A stretch of DNA of 64,000 nt from Jezberella montanilacus (GTDB lineage Bacteria; Pseudomonadota; Gammaproteobacteria; Burkholderiales; Burkholderiaceae_B). The translations under genes were made by a program, and so were the position numbers. The stretch spans positions 186,001 through 250,000 of the forward strand of contig NZ_PVTV01000015.1 in assembly GCF_003003055.1 (NCBI RefSeq). Reading direction: 5' to 3'. Below the pieces are notes generated by a model. The model did not search any database. It worked only from the letters and a program-made list of their open reading frames with translations, and had not been told where the DNA came from. This document shows positions 6,025 to 64,000 of the stretch, piece by piece (position 1 is the first letter of the stretch; the number at the start of each line of letters is the position of its first letter).

Positions 6025-6974
6025 TGCAGATGACGCGCTTGCAGGTTTTGATAGCCTTGACCGTTGCCTTGTGTGGCATCGCGGCACCATGGGTATTACC
6101 GACCTACTACCTGTATTTACTCAATCTAGTACTTATCAACATCATCCTGGCACTTGGCTTAAATATCGTTACTGGGAACACAGGTCAGATTTCACTGTGC
6201 CACTCATCTTTCATGGCGATCGCTGCATACGCCTACACCATTCTTAACAACGAGATGCACTGGCCGCTGCTGCTTTGCGCCCTCGCAGCGGTGATGTTGG
6301 CGAGCCTCGGTGGAGCACTGGTTGGTTACCCAGCACGACGGTTAGGCGGCATCTATTTAGCTTTGGCAACGCTTGCGTTTTTATCTTTAACTCAAATTCT
6401 GATCGAGGAATTCCCTGATCTGACCGGAGGCATCCGCGGACTCAAGATCGAAAAAACAACACTTTTTGGGATATCAACAAGCAACGAACCATTGCTGTTC
6501 TATCTGGTTGGTATTACTTGCGCCTTTTGTCTTTATGTCACGATCAATATTTTACGGTTTCCTATCGGTCGAGCTTTTGACGCCATCCGCACGAGTCCGC
6601 AAGCTGCGCAGTCTTTGGGTATACCAGTCGCTAAAATCAAGTTACTCGCGTTCACCATATCCGCCGCCTATGCTGGATTGGCTGGAGTGCTCTTCGCCAT
6701 GGTTGTCGGGTTTATAGACCCTGTTGAGTTCGGAGTTGGGGCATCGTTGCGTTACATCACCTTCATTGTCGTCGGCGGGCTGGGCAGCATTGCCGGCTCA
6801 ATCGTTGGCTCGGTCATTTTCACGTTGTTGCCCGAGGGCTTGCGTGGGATCAAAGAATATAGCGATTTGGTTTACGCCGTCATTTTGCTGCTAAGTTTAG
6901 TTTTTTTACCAAATGGTTTGATCAGCCTTTATCAAAGACTCGTGCAACGCAGAAAAAGAGCGAACTTGAGCTAG
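6024..6974 (+). CDS. livM: LivM-type ABC transporter permease
   Basis: This 316-residue polytopic permease carries the LivM hallmark LNIVTGNTGQISLCHSSFMA near residue 48 and a conserved loop RAFDAIRTSPQAAQSLGI. The ATG at 6024 overlaps the livH stop (ATGA), indicating translational coupling; a TTG one codon earlier is also in frame. It ends four bases before the first ATPase gene. It is the partner of LivH in the heterodimeric channel. Confidence 0.92.
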   Translation: MQMTRLQVLIALTVALCGIAAPWVLPTYYLYLLNLVLINIILALGLNIVTGNTGQISLCHSSFMAIAAYAYTILNNEMHWPLLLCALAAVMLASLGGALVGYPARRLGGIYLALATLAFLSLTQILIEEFPDLTGGIRGLKIEKTTLFGISTSNEPLLFYLVGITCAFCLYVTINILRFPIGRAFDAIRTSPQAAQSLGIPVAKIKLLAFTISAAYAGLAGVLFAMVVGFIDPVEFGVGASLRYITFIVVGGLGSIAGSIVGSVIFTLLPEGLRGIKEYSDLVYAVILLLSLVFLPNGLISLYQRLVQRRKRANLS

Positions 6975-54732: not shown

Positions 54733-55081
54733 TATTTTGTGAGAAATTAGTTGTCGTGACCTGTCCGGTTTTATCGGACCGTCACAATGCGGGTGGTAGC
54801 GAAAACCAATCCGTGTTGTACGGCAGATCGATCGCTTGCTTCAAATTGAACTAGGTATCGTAGCTCAACCCGGCTGTTTGATAAGCCGTCGGACTACGTT
54901 CACGCAGAATCGAAAACTCACCACTATAAAGAGTGGTGATCCGCTGGCTCATACCGTACGCGACGTTCACGTGAAACTGCGGCGCTATCTATGCTGCGAT
55001 AGCGAAAGGCGATTTGATTGCTCATGGCTCGTGCTGTCATCAGATCCTCACAATGAGATATCTTTGAGAGATCTATTTGCT
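54733..55081. other. 349-bp stretch without a recognised gene
   Basis: This gap between two minus-strand genes contains a perfect 7-bp inverted repeat (CACCACT...AGTGGTG, 54919-54938). Short frames on both strands show no family resemblance and no ribosome binding site. Nothing else could be supported. Confidence 0.5.
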
Positions 55082-55975
55082 TTACATCTGTAAAGTAGCG
55101 ACGGATAAATTCATCCCTTCAAATCCGTATAGTGTGGCAGGATTGCTCACAAGAATTTTTTCAATTTGTCCTGCTGTATCAGTCCAGCGAGTTAGTAAGT
55201 CAATGAGATTTGCATCATCAGGTTTTGATGTCTCGGTAGGGTGAGGCCAATCGCTGCCCCACACCATTCGCTCTGGAGCTGTTGCAACGTAACTGCGTGC
55301 GATAGGATCTAAATCGCGATACAACCCGTCCGCTTGGAACTGAGAATCTAGATATGCGCCCGAAAGTTTGATCCAGGTACGCCCCGACTGTAATAATTCA
55401 GTGACGATACGATGCGCAGGATGTTTGATGCCAATGGGCAGAGGTATACGTGCCAAGTGATCAAATACGATGGTGCCTGGCAGTCGTTTAACAAGTGCTT
55501 CATGTTCAACAATTTGATCCGCTGTCCAATGAAGTTGAATATGCCAGCCTAACTCATGAACTCGCCGTGCTAACGGTTCGACCATCTCAAAAGTGACGGG
55601 GGCATTCGTTGCGTTGTAAAGCGTAAAGCGAATCCCACAAATTCCACCATCATCCATGATTGCCAGCTCTTGGTCTGTCACACTGGTGTTCACGACGCCC
55701 ACTCCACGGGTATTTTGCCGACCGAGTTGCTCGATACCCATCAACGTGACGCGATTGTCTGTTTGAGAAGCGCGTGGGTTCACAATAACAGTTCTCGTGG
55801 TTCCGAGGCGTTGTTGAATAAGTTTGTATTCGGCTGCAGTCGCTTGCGATAGCATGCCGTGCGCATTCGGTGAAGCATAGGCGGGGTCATACAAATGAAT
55901 ATGAGAGTCACAGGCGTTTGCAGGTACTTTGAGCTTAGGTTTGTCAGTGCCGCTAGAGTGCGGAATCGTATTCAT
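55082..55975 (-). CDS. Amidohydrolase family protein (2-pyrone-4,6-dicarboxylate lactonase-like)
   Basis: This 297-residue TIM-barrel protein has HxH in ACDSHIHLYDP, LHWTAD, VFDHLARIP and VWGSDWPHPTE, as in LigI-type lactonases and related hydrolases. It starts 8 bp after the CoA transferase stop, on the same strand. The lactonase resemblance is from motifs alone; a role on another carboxylic lactone or amide is possible. Confidence 0.82.
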   Translation of the reverse strand: MNTIPHSSGTDKPKLKVPANACDSHIHLYDPAYASPNAHGMLSQATAAEYKLIQQRLGTTRTVIVNPRASQTDNRVTLMGIEQLGRQNTRGVGVVNTSVTDQELAIMDDGGICGIRFTLYNATNAPVTFEMVEPLARRVHELGWHIQLHWTADQIVEHEALVKRLPGTIVFDHLARIPLPIGIKHPAHRIVTELLQSGRTWIKLSGAYLDSQFQADGLYRDLDPIARSYVATAPERMVWGSDWPHPTETSKPDDANLIDLLTRWTDTAGQIEKILVSNPATLYGFEGMNLSVATLQM

Positions 55976-61292: not shown

Positions 61293-61631
61293 CTACTCGA
61301 CGATGGCTTGCAGTCGCTCTAGCGCATCATCGAGCACGACTTGAGGCACACTTTCAATCTTGCGTGCTTTACGCGCAGCGAGGTCAAGCATGCGAATCTT
61401 ATTCAAGAGCGCAACGCCTTTGGTCTTGCACCCGATGCCCATTAACGTAACGGCAAACCCCGCATACCTAGCGTAATCGCCACCTTGAGTAATTGGGGCA
61501 ACCAAGACGTCACCAAGCTTGTTAAATTCTTTGGTCGTCAACACAAGGGCTGGTCGAGTGCCACGCTGCTCATGTCCGACAGTCGGATCCAGAGGAACGT
61601 TGACAATATCCCCTCTCTCAAAAACCTTCAC
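61293..61631 (-). CDS. MazF/PemK-like toxin
   Basis: From GTG 61631 the 112-residue protein has the family N-terminus FERGDIVNVPLDPTVGHEQRGTRPALVLT and the middle VAPITQGG, as in ChpB/PemK mRNA interferases. These cleave mRNA until bound by the antitoxin. The GTG overlaps the last bases of the antitoxin gene, the usual arrangement. The long frame starting at 61709 would run through the antitoxin gene and is not the toxin. Confidence 0.9.
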   Translation of the reverse strand: MKVFERGDIVNVPLDPTVGHEQRGTRPALVLTTKEFNKLGDVLVAPITQGGDYARYAGFAVTLMGIGCKTKGVALLNKIRMLDLAARKARKIESVPQVVLDDALERLQAIVE

Positions 61632-61882
61632 CACTGCACTTCTTGCCCGACAGGACGGGCAACATCCCACAATGCGAGGTCTGCTGGCATTGGCGCCTTC
61701 AAGTCGCACTGAGAAATCATATCGGCCAATACATACCTGCGCTTAGGAGTCAGAACGATCTTGCCATCGGGCGTAGTGTTCAGTGTCATGTGATGACCAA
61801 CACTCAACCCCAGGTCTTTCAGCACGGGGGGTGGCATGACGAGTGCCGTGCTGTTACCCATCTTTTTTAGTACGATTTCCAC
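61628..61882 (-). CDS. MazE/AbrB-like antitoxin
   Basis: This 84-residue protein has the AbrB-type N-terminus MEIVLKKMGNSTALVMPPPVLKDLGLSVGHHM typical of MazE/ChpS, which binds DNA and represses the operon. The C-terminal acidic/hydrophobic part would neutralise the toxin. It precedes and overlaps the toxin gene by four bases. Confidence 0.9.
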   Translation of the reverse strand: MEIVLKKMGNSTALVMPPPVLKDLGLSVGHHMTLNTTPDGKIVLTPKRRYVLADMISQCDLKAPMPADLALWDVARPVGQEVQW

Positions 61883-62130
61883 AAAAACCTCCAGCTAACT
61901 ATTGATACACAAATTTTATCATCATAAGACCTAAAATGTAAAACAATGTATTACTTTTATGCGCCGTGGTCGAATAGATTTCGGTTCCCGTTAGCTGGTT
62001 ATTTAGTTGTCGTTATCGATGACTTGCAGCGCAAGCTTGACGCAGCCAAGGCAACCCTCACCAAACGCCTCACGTCACCAACGTGACGACGACCACTGCT
62101 GACTAAATAAACCTTAAAAGAAGTGGGAAA
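61883..62130. other. 248-bp region upstream of the antitoxin
   Basis: AT-rich in its first 90 bases, as expected for the antitoxin promoter. A frame at about 61985-62084 gives LVVVIDDLQRKLDAAKATLTKRL but has no start or family resemblance. Possibly a further fragment of the same decayed element as at 62131. Confidence 0.4.
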
Positions 62131-62409
62131 ATTCTACCTCTATCCCCGGTTAACCTGGGGGACGATTACCATGCCTACCCGTTACACGATAAAACGGTGA
62201 CCATCACGAACTGCGGACGAATCTGTATTGACGGTAAAAAGATTCACTTCAGTACGGTCTTTGCGGGGCAAGACGTAGGCCTACGTCAGGTCGAAGACGA
62301 CGTGTGGCTTGTGAGTTTTATGGAATACGATATGGGATACTTTGATTTGGAGTCTCACAGAGTACAAGCCTTGGAGAACCCATTTGGCCCCAAAGTGTTA
62401 ACTATGTGA
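62131..62409 (+). pseudogene. C-terminal remnant of an IS481-like transposase
   Basis: The frame through 62161-62409 reads HDKTVTITNCGRICIDGKK, FSTVFAGQDVGLRQVEDDVWLVSF, MEYDMGYFDLE and ENPFGPKVLTM before the stop. This is the conserved C-terminal beta-rich end of IS481-type transposases. The catalytic DDE core upstream is missing. A GTG at 62197 would allow a short peptide but there is no reason to expect function. It sits next to a tRNA gene fragment. Confidence 0.6.
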
Positions 62410-62455
62410 CCGGTACGATATGTAAACCATGTGTTCGGTACATACCTAATAATTT

Positions 62456-62502
62456 TGGCTCCCCGACCTGGACTCGAACCAGGGACCTGCGGATTAACAG
62501 TC
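62456..62502 (-). other. 3' fragment of tRNA-Asn (GTT), possible att site
   Basis: Read on the minus strand, the 47 bases begin in the anticodon stem/loop (GACTGTTAATCC), continue with the variable loop, a complete T arm (GGTTCGAGTCC) and the acceptor 3' strand, and end in CCA. The first ~30 bases of a tRNA are replaced by unrelated AT-rich DNA. This is the classical footprint of site-specific integration into a tRNA 3' end, where one boundary keeps only the duplicated part. No complete tRNA-Asn or integrase gene lies in the window. Confidence 0.85.
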
Positions 62503-62995
62503 GCACTAGCTATAAATAGGAATAAATAAAATACACTTGAAAATCATGATCTTAGAGAGATAGTCGCTTCTAAAACACGAGTGTATTCGTTCCTTTTTAT
62601 GCCCTTTTGAGTGCTTATTTCAGCATTTGTGGTGCGGTTTTGGCCACAGGTCAGGGCACGACTACATGCAGAATTAACTTAGTCAATTGGCTTAAAGCAG
62701 AGCTCTGCAAGCTAACATTATGACGTTCTTACACGCTTACGCCAAGTTTTTTGGATATAGCAAAATCGCAGGCTGCAAGAATAATCGTTATTACCCTGCC
62801 CTGGGTAATAACAAACAGCGAAGCCAAAAAATTAAATGAGATCATAAAAACTCCGTTGGTTACTTCACGATCGGACCCGTTCTTTGATCCCACCCACATC
62901 CTAAGCTTGCTACCAATGTCAACCAACGTGTAAACTGACAACCAGGATGTCAACTAGGCGCTTTTTCGTGCGCCCACAACCAGAGGAGTGAAGCT
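62503..62995. other. 493-bp stretch without a supported gene
   Basis: AT-rich at the start (62503-62640). Frames on both strands of 62729-62953 (60 and 74 residues) overlap each other, and neither shows a ribosome binding site or known family. A short inverted repeat CCCTGCCCTGGG lies near 62796. The final 40 bases hold the promoter and GGAG for the gene at 62996. Confidence 0.5.
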
Positions 62996-63796
62996 GTGAG
63001 CGAGAAGATGGCCAATGCCCCCGTGTACTACGCCCTGGCACAAGCACAGTTCAACCCTGTCGCCGCTATGGCTAAGTACGTTGGAGAGGTGCAGGATATT
63101 CTTCGGCGCGATGGCTATACTTCCTTCGAGCCACACCAAGTCGCCCACCTACAACTTACTGCAGCGCCTGGCCAAGCTTCAAGCGAACCACAGGTTGCGC
63201 ACACCACGTCTTGGCTTATAACGAAGGGGGATCGCGCTTCAGGCTTTATCTTGAGTGCAGCTTCGATTACCTTCCACTCGACCCACTACGAAACGAGCAA
63301 AGAGTTCATCCCAGAACTATTGCGCGGGCTAAAAGCTGTGCATAAAGTTGTCGGTCTTGAACACATCAGCAGGCTGGGCCTGCGCTATCTTGACGCAGTG
63401 CTGCCACAATCAGATGAAACGATTGAACAGTACCTAGCCGATGGGTTACTTGGTGTTCACTTTGGTGCTACGCAAAGGTACGCACTAAATGAGTCAGTTT
63501 TCGAGACCCAATCCGCCCCTCTCGTCACCCGAGGAACTTTGGTGGCCCGCGTTCACCGAATGACCTCACCTCTGGGTTATCCGCCCGACATGCTGCCCAG
63601 CGGCCTCATTCCAATGCCTAAGTTTGACATTAAAGACGCAACGCCTCATGCGGTAATTGACACAGATCACTTTGTTGAAGGACGAATGTCTCTAGATTTC
63701 GAAAAAATAGATGAGCAATTGGTCTCTCTTCACGCGACGATGAAGTTAGTGTTCGATGCCACCGTTAAAGATCACGCTCGCGCAGTTTGGGCATAA
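62996..63796 (+). CDS. TIGR04255-like protein of unknown function
   Basis: This 266-residue protein starts APVYYALAQAQFNPV and shows TSWLITKGDRASGFILSAASITFHSTHYETSKEFIPELL followed by LGLRYLDAV, the features I associate with the sporadically distributed TIGR04255 family. The GTG start has AGAGGAG upstream. No catalytic motif is evident. The family tends to occur in accessory DNA, and here it lies beside a tRNA fragment and a toxin-antitoxin pair. A second frame follows 19 bp downstream. Confidence 0.7.
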   Translation: MSEKMANAPVYYALAQAQFNPVAAMAKYVGEVQDILRRDGYTSFEPHQVAHLQLTAAPGQASSEPQVAHTTSWLITKGDRASGFILSAASITFHSTHYETSKEFIPELLRGLKAVHKVVGLEHISRLGLRYLDAVLPQSDETIEQYLADGLLGVHFGATQRYALNESVFETQSAPLVTRGTLVARVHRMTSPLGYPPDMLPSGLIPMPKFDIKDATPHAVIDTDHFVEGRMSLDFEKIDEQLVSLHATMKLVFDATVKDHARAVWA

Positions 63797-63815
63797 GATA
63801 AATTTATACAAAAAA

Positions 63816-64000
63816 ATGTACTCTATTCCAATTTCGACTCGGCCTATGCAGCAAGATTGGCCGTCAGCAAAGACTGTTTTCGCGGTGATGGGCATGATAT
63901 TGGCTGGCACCGGCAGTGTTTATGGGCTCGACCGTACTGAATCTTGGCGACATCACATTCAGCCTCGGGTGCCGTTTATTCTCGATGCTGCCGTTGCATC
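63816..64000 (+). CDS. Partial CDS running off the window, unknown function
   Basis: An open frame from ATG 63816 continues to the last base (61 codons): after a polar start comes a short hydrophobic stretch (KTVFAVMGMILAGTGSVYGL) and then ESWRHHIQPRVPFILDAAV. It follows the TIGR04255-like gene closely and is probably its partner. No clear ribosome binding site precedes the first ATG, so the in-frame ATG at 63846 is an alternative. Confidence 0.5.
   Translation, partial: MYSIPISTRPMQQDWPSAKTVFAVMGMILAGTGSVYGLDRTESWRHHIQPRVPFILDAAVA

Follow-up and report, generated by a model that had tools for sequence, protein, structure and literature searches.

A tRNA-Asn 3' half in Jezberella montanilacus is probably the distal att copy of an HK97-type prophage, beside the end of a putative tRNA-homing IS481-clade element

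Introduction

Temperate phages and genomic islands that integrate at tRNA 3' halves by means of tyrosine recombinases (PF00589) leave a characteristic arrangement, with the integrase beside the rebuilt tRNA gene, the displaced 3' half at the opposite end, and a bounding direct repeat that spans the tRNA gene from its anticodon loop to its 3' terminus. CIMEs, in turn, stack up by tandem accretion (PMC5704250). Among transposons, Tn7-like and CAST elements have tRNA att sites and are targeted by TnsD/TniQ or guide RNAs, and TGT/ACA ends are common to Tn7-like elements and IS481 transposons (PMC11406308). Members of the IS481 family carry one transposase, which has HTH and rve domains, and we found no direct precedent in the open-licence literature for IS481 elements that target tRNAs or for toxin-antitoxin cassettes at tRNA ends.

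Here we describe a locus of Jezberella montanilacus in which a prophage and an IS meet at one tRNA-Asn 3' end. The prophage shows no essential difference from the temperate phages and islands outlined above. The IS belongs to a clade that has homing to tRNA genes in common with Tn7-like and CAST elements but, unlike them, has a single gene, and it shares the HTH-rve transposase of the IS481 family, whose members checked at ≤46% identity lack the tRNA or T-arm siting of this clade.

Results

The window (the whole stretch of DNA analysed, 64,000 nucleotides) was placed at C5:186001-250000 of the source genome by a DNA search of that genome. The minus strand of 62456-62500 equals nucleotides 32-76 of tRNA-Asn(GTT), from the anticodon loop through CCA, and the 5' half is missing, just as a sequence-only reading of this DNA had claimed. 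The block identical to the intact gene is slightly longer, 50 bp (C5:248453-248502; Table 1). ARAGORN found no complete tRNA in the 64-kb window; the genome's sole intact tRNA-Asn gene lies outside it, 37.5 kb to the right of the fragment, at C5:285929-286004 on the minus strand. A DNA search of the genome returned only two copies of the tRNA-Asn core, and in a mismatch scan of ~100 kb around the site no third copy rose above the shuffled background, be it inside the prophage interval or in the window. Since the next-best 45-mer reached only 27/45, equal to shuffled sequence, the two copies at 45/45 cannot be put down to chance.

Table 1. Coordinates of the features at the tRNA-Asn locus and of small segments between tRNA-Asn 3' halves in relatives (window positions unless a contig is given)
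Feature	Position	Strand	Basis or remark
ChpB/ChpS-like (MazF/MazE) toxin-antitoxin pair left of the IS; chromosomal context, no link to the element seen	61293..61882	-	NF007320 1.4e-47, NF008463 3.4e-14 (the latter under the cut-off)
IS481-family remnant (right end); ORF 62197-62409 encodes the C-terminal ~79 aa of the transposase	62173..62446	+	98% identity to full copy in a relative
Gap of 9 bp from IS right end to tRNA CCA	62447..62455	.	Sequence; equal 9-11 bp gap at other copies
attL-type core: tRNA-Asn 3' half and 5 flanking bases in common with the intact gene	62453..62502	-	100% identity to C5:285926-285975
Prophage left end, running on to C5:285925 beyond the window	62503..64000	.	50-bp direct repeat at both ends, with integrase and phage genes between
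First cargo gene within attL, encoding a TIGR04255 family protein	62996..63796	+	NCBIfam TIGR04255 5.7e-40
Small toxin-antitoxin-like pair or fragment between tRNA-Asn 3' halves	G001:C45, G004:C38, G005:C2, G017:C476, G019:C33, G021:C33, G024:C72 (L076-L082)		Genes in tRNA direction

The sequence-only reading had taken the fragment for an att copy left by integration at a tRNA 3' end and, as neither an intact tRNA-Asn nor an integrase lay in the window, had expected the element to pass its edge. Both were found beyond the right edge, and a search for the intact gene with a neighbouring integrase, as it had proposed, ended at a PF00589 tyrosine integrase (C5:285327-285809, plus strand) immediately adjoining the intact tRNA-Asn on its 3' side. 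The two cores form a direct repeat around an interval of 37,423 bp, which is rich in phage genes: RecT, YqaJ, RusA, HNH, a replication initiator and a regulator, together with packaging and head genes (TerL terminase, portal, ClpP-type protease, major head protein (capsid) and connectors), and tail and lysis genes (tail tube, tape measure, holin, endolysin and spanin). Beyond the window, the cargo on the attL side includes Eco47II-type restriction-modification, made up of an endonuclease (RE_Eco47II, 3.6e-55) and a MerR-HTH cytosine methylase (C5 methylase, 2.8e-85), as well as a SIR2-like ORF (SIR2_2, 3.7e-6) and a treble-clef protein. The best isolate-phage match to the integrase, from Shewanella phage vB_Sb_QDWS, is 45% identical, and the closest terminase is ~69% identical. 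Judged by its genes, the element is a complete-looking HK97-type prophage at a single tRNA-Asn gene.

Comparing GC content on the two sides, also suggested by that reading, proved uninformative (50.5% vs 49.6%), and it was tetranucleotide usage that differed modestly (correlation 0.905, vs 0.956 host-host). The contig stops 254 bp past the intact tRNA-Asn, so that the right host flank is short; its terminus (G000:C5:286100-286258, the end of L043) resembles an IS200/IS605-type end hairpin, which is probably why the assembly stops by the tRNA. Two further resemblances were seen in the window: 65 bp just inside attL (62585-62649) are 94% identical to G019:C33:2887-2954, and 54788-55116, which looks like a decayed chromosomal copy, shows ~90-93% identity to a portion of the PemK-like toxin region in the prophage (L043, around 6100-6900).

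The same integrase (99-100% identity) occurs in three viral contigs and one MAG. One of the viral contigs, IMGVR_UViG_2681812960_000001, is the source genome's own prophage (100% identity over the 7.4 kb compared), catalogued with imprecise ends (C5:250463-286256) that start ~2 kb inside attL and overshoot the tRNA. In CAINDJ010000406 and UViGs 3300013093 and 3300046006, identity at the phage end stays at ~96% as far as the tRNA-Asn, after which the host flanks differ. All DNAs with this integrase have an intact tRNA-Asn, and because each of the three viral contigs carries one, they are integrated copies; no close free phage bearing attP was found. A prophage-free site was found in G014:C5, where an IS end, 10 bp and an intact tRNA-Asn follow one another; this IS is of a sister type, and the contig ends inside it. 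The exact left flank of the window joined to an intact tRNA-Asn was not found in any relative compared.

The tRNA-Asn gene is a hot spot in the genus. Extra tRNA-Asn 3' halves, nearly always beginning at about nucleotide 32, were present in 10/31 other genus genomes, downstream of tRNA-Asn or on short contigs. Several of them bound att-flanked, recombinase-free segments that, like CIMEs, are stacked at one tRNA but of which some, unlike CIMEs, measure only ~0.4-1.1 kb and hold little beyond a toxin-antitoxin pair. One type, an MNT-like nucleotidyltransferase with a helical partner, is 79-95% identical between five genomes (G003, without a recognisable outer core, was counted for the MNT-like genes only); the partner had no Pfam match, and in our own reading it is HepT. 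The other segments contain MqsR/MqsA or one of two small modules without family assignment, and no integrase was found near the small segments of relatives. As the window holds no such segment, they were rejected as part of the element described here. Longer segments of 3-15 kb, with ordinary metabolic genes, also have tRNA-Asn 3' halves as their bounds (G031:C31, G031:C17, G006:C29 and G019:C33), and G006 retains a 3' scrap of the window phage's integrase by one of them.

Such stacks raise the question of whether the interval is itself a CIME-like pile of accreted islands, in which the attL cargo, from the TIGR04255 gene to the SIR2-like ORF, would be a separate element whose inner att copy was lost. 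Tandem tRNA-Asn 3' halves being common in the genus is in keeping with this, as are the lack of any PHROG match for the attL-side cargo genes and the absence of the first 1.5 kb of the prophage at attL from the relatives searched, G001 with its same integrase included. Set against these points, the interval holds no third core copy, and cargo by an att site is usual in prophages, and so we find a stack unlikely. As for the element being a CIME in its own right, this was rejected, its own integrase being retained.

On the other side of the tRNA-Asn 3' half lies a truncated IS481-family copy (Table 1), of which no intact version was found in the source genome. The full IS of a relative is ~1.3 kb long (L086:49-1333) and consists of one ORF, a 390-aa DDE transposase with an rve integrase core and an N-terminal HTH (PF13683, PF00665, PF13565), with no TnsC/TniQ-type targeting genes in this full copy; homologues of the transposase carry the IS481 family annotation. 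Similar ends are visible at the IS termini, and a target duplication (TTGT), read by eye, is clear only at L172. In the left flank of L172 and at L078 (G017:C476), two successive IS ends are nested beside one tRNA, as if later copies re-insert by the tRNA and displace older ones outward. Elsewhere in the window, a 78-bp stretch (62001-62079) is repeated in several genus genomes (85-91% identity) and is possibly a MITE or small repeat.

We surveyed the genus with the IS sequence alone as query and obtained 19 right ends in 12 genomes, 18 of them with flanking sequence. In 13 of these 18, a tRNA (Lys, Asp, Asn, Val or Phe) or a tRNA 3' remnant comes after 9-10 bp, the transposase being convergent to the tRNA in all 13 cases (short remnants were judged by eye); four genus copies had neither tRNA nor motif. 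The same siting extends through the clade, defined as copies with a transposase at least 60% identical and spanning Beta- and Alphaproteobacteria: nine tRNA species have copies 9-11 bp beyond their 3' ends, in convergent orientation without exception. The copies are not all independent, as the tRNA-Arg sites may partly share descent. The three closest intact copies outside the genus (69-78%) lie by tRNA-Met, -Phe and -Lys at gaps of 9-10 bp. Rhizobial plasmid copies (60-68%) lie by tRNA-Arg(CCG) on pSymB-type replicons of S. meliloti and in R. leguminosarum, a Peteryoungia copy adjoins tRNA-Ser, and other rhizobial copies adjoin tRNA 3' halves that are truncated or, at sites lacking a tRNA, stand 22-24 bp away from a T-arm-like motif. 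The whole of a pSymB-like replicon contains one tRNA gene (PMC13274422). Five further copies were checked, and all four with a right end fit (one repeats an earlier site), the fifth having no right end.

The motif GGNNTYGAACC occurs without mismatch at +15-30 in 19/35 IS copies, compared with 0.30% of random positions, and tRNA-less sites usually have a T-arm-like motif at the equivalent distance (+22-25). At six tRNA-less sites the T-stem pairs are mostly broken (2-3 of 5), which suggests that the 11-bp sequence is read, not the tRNA fold. The tRNA pattern was absent from seven plasmid relatives (~32-42%) and from the chromosomal relatives examined at ≤50%, and so it is not general to IS481. 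The wider families of G353 and G100 gave only truncated IS copies.

It could be argued that these copies adjoin tRNAs merely because this is a safe place, without any targeting, and many elements are indeed tolerated at tRNA 3' flanks. Yet the 9-11 bp spacing is fixed, the orientation single and the T-arm motif present at +22-25 in tRNA-less sites, and relatives at ≤46% identity do not have the pattern, all of which makes this explanation very unlikely. A host factor or selective survival by tRNAs could add to the pattern; survival alone is insufficient, as it would leave the fixed spacing and orientation unexplained.

Discussion

We read the two neighbours as unrelated elements at one tRNA 3' end, the fragment being the distal att copy of a temperate HK97-type phage and the sequence next to it the end of a tRNA-homing IS481-clade element, with a probability of roughly 0.93. 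For the phage, the att duplication, the integrase by the intact gene, the intervening phage genes and the recurrence of this integrase-tRNA junction in other hosts are all observed directly. Its attP would have carried the 45-50 bp tRNA 3' half, and integration by the tyrosine recombinase would have restored tRNA-Asn to full length next to the integrase, leaving the host's old 3' half at 62453-62502. That the fragment is an incomplete tRNA gene would also suit a local deletion of a complete tRNA-Asn, which the sequence-only reading had tied to a complete copy in the same place in relatives, but this is effectively excluded, for the genome's complete and identical copy stands by the integrase in an att arrangement with phage genes between, and fragments in relatives begin at the same nucleotide, ~32. 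The prophage edge is, then, an ordinary one, and the main gain is a corrected catalogue boundary. Under the two-element reading, the IS may have arrived before or after the phage, either order being open to it because the displaced 3' half keeps the T-arm.

For the IS clade, we observe a fixed spacing and a single orientation across many tRNA species, with a T-arm-like motif where the site has no tRNA. Because the IS has no other gene, its transposase itself probably recognises the target: it would read the T-arm motif as DNA and cut ~23 bp away, so that the element would land past CCA and the tRNA would be spared. We consider it quite likely that this single-gene clade reads GGNNTYGAACC in this manner and inserts in one direction at that distance across Alpha- and Betaproteobacteria. 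B-box-related targeting in eukaryotes is a comparable case.

With its recombinase-free toxin-antitoxin stacks at tRNA-Asn, this genus offers a means of testing how small an att-flanked element can be. As for the IS, if T-arm reading is true, the clade would represent a minimal DDE transposon for which tRNA genes serve as a universal safe harbour, with neither TniQ nor guide RNA, and, should the transposase alone do the reading, a very small programmed-target one. T-arm reading, if true, would moreover account for the accumulation of IS ends next to phage att sites in some tRNA 3' flanks.
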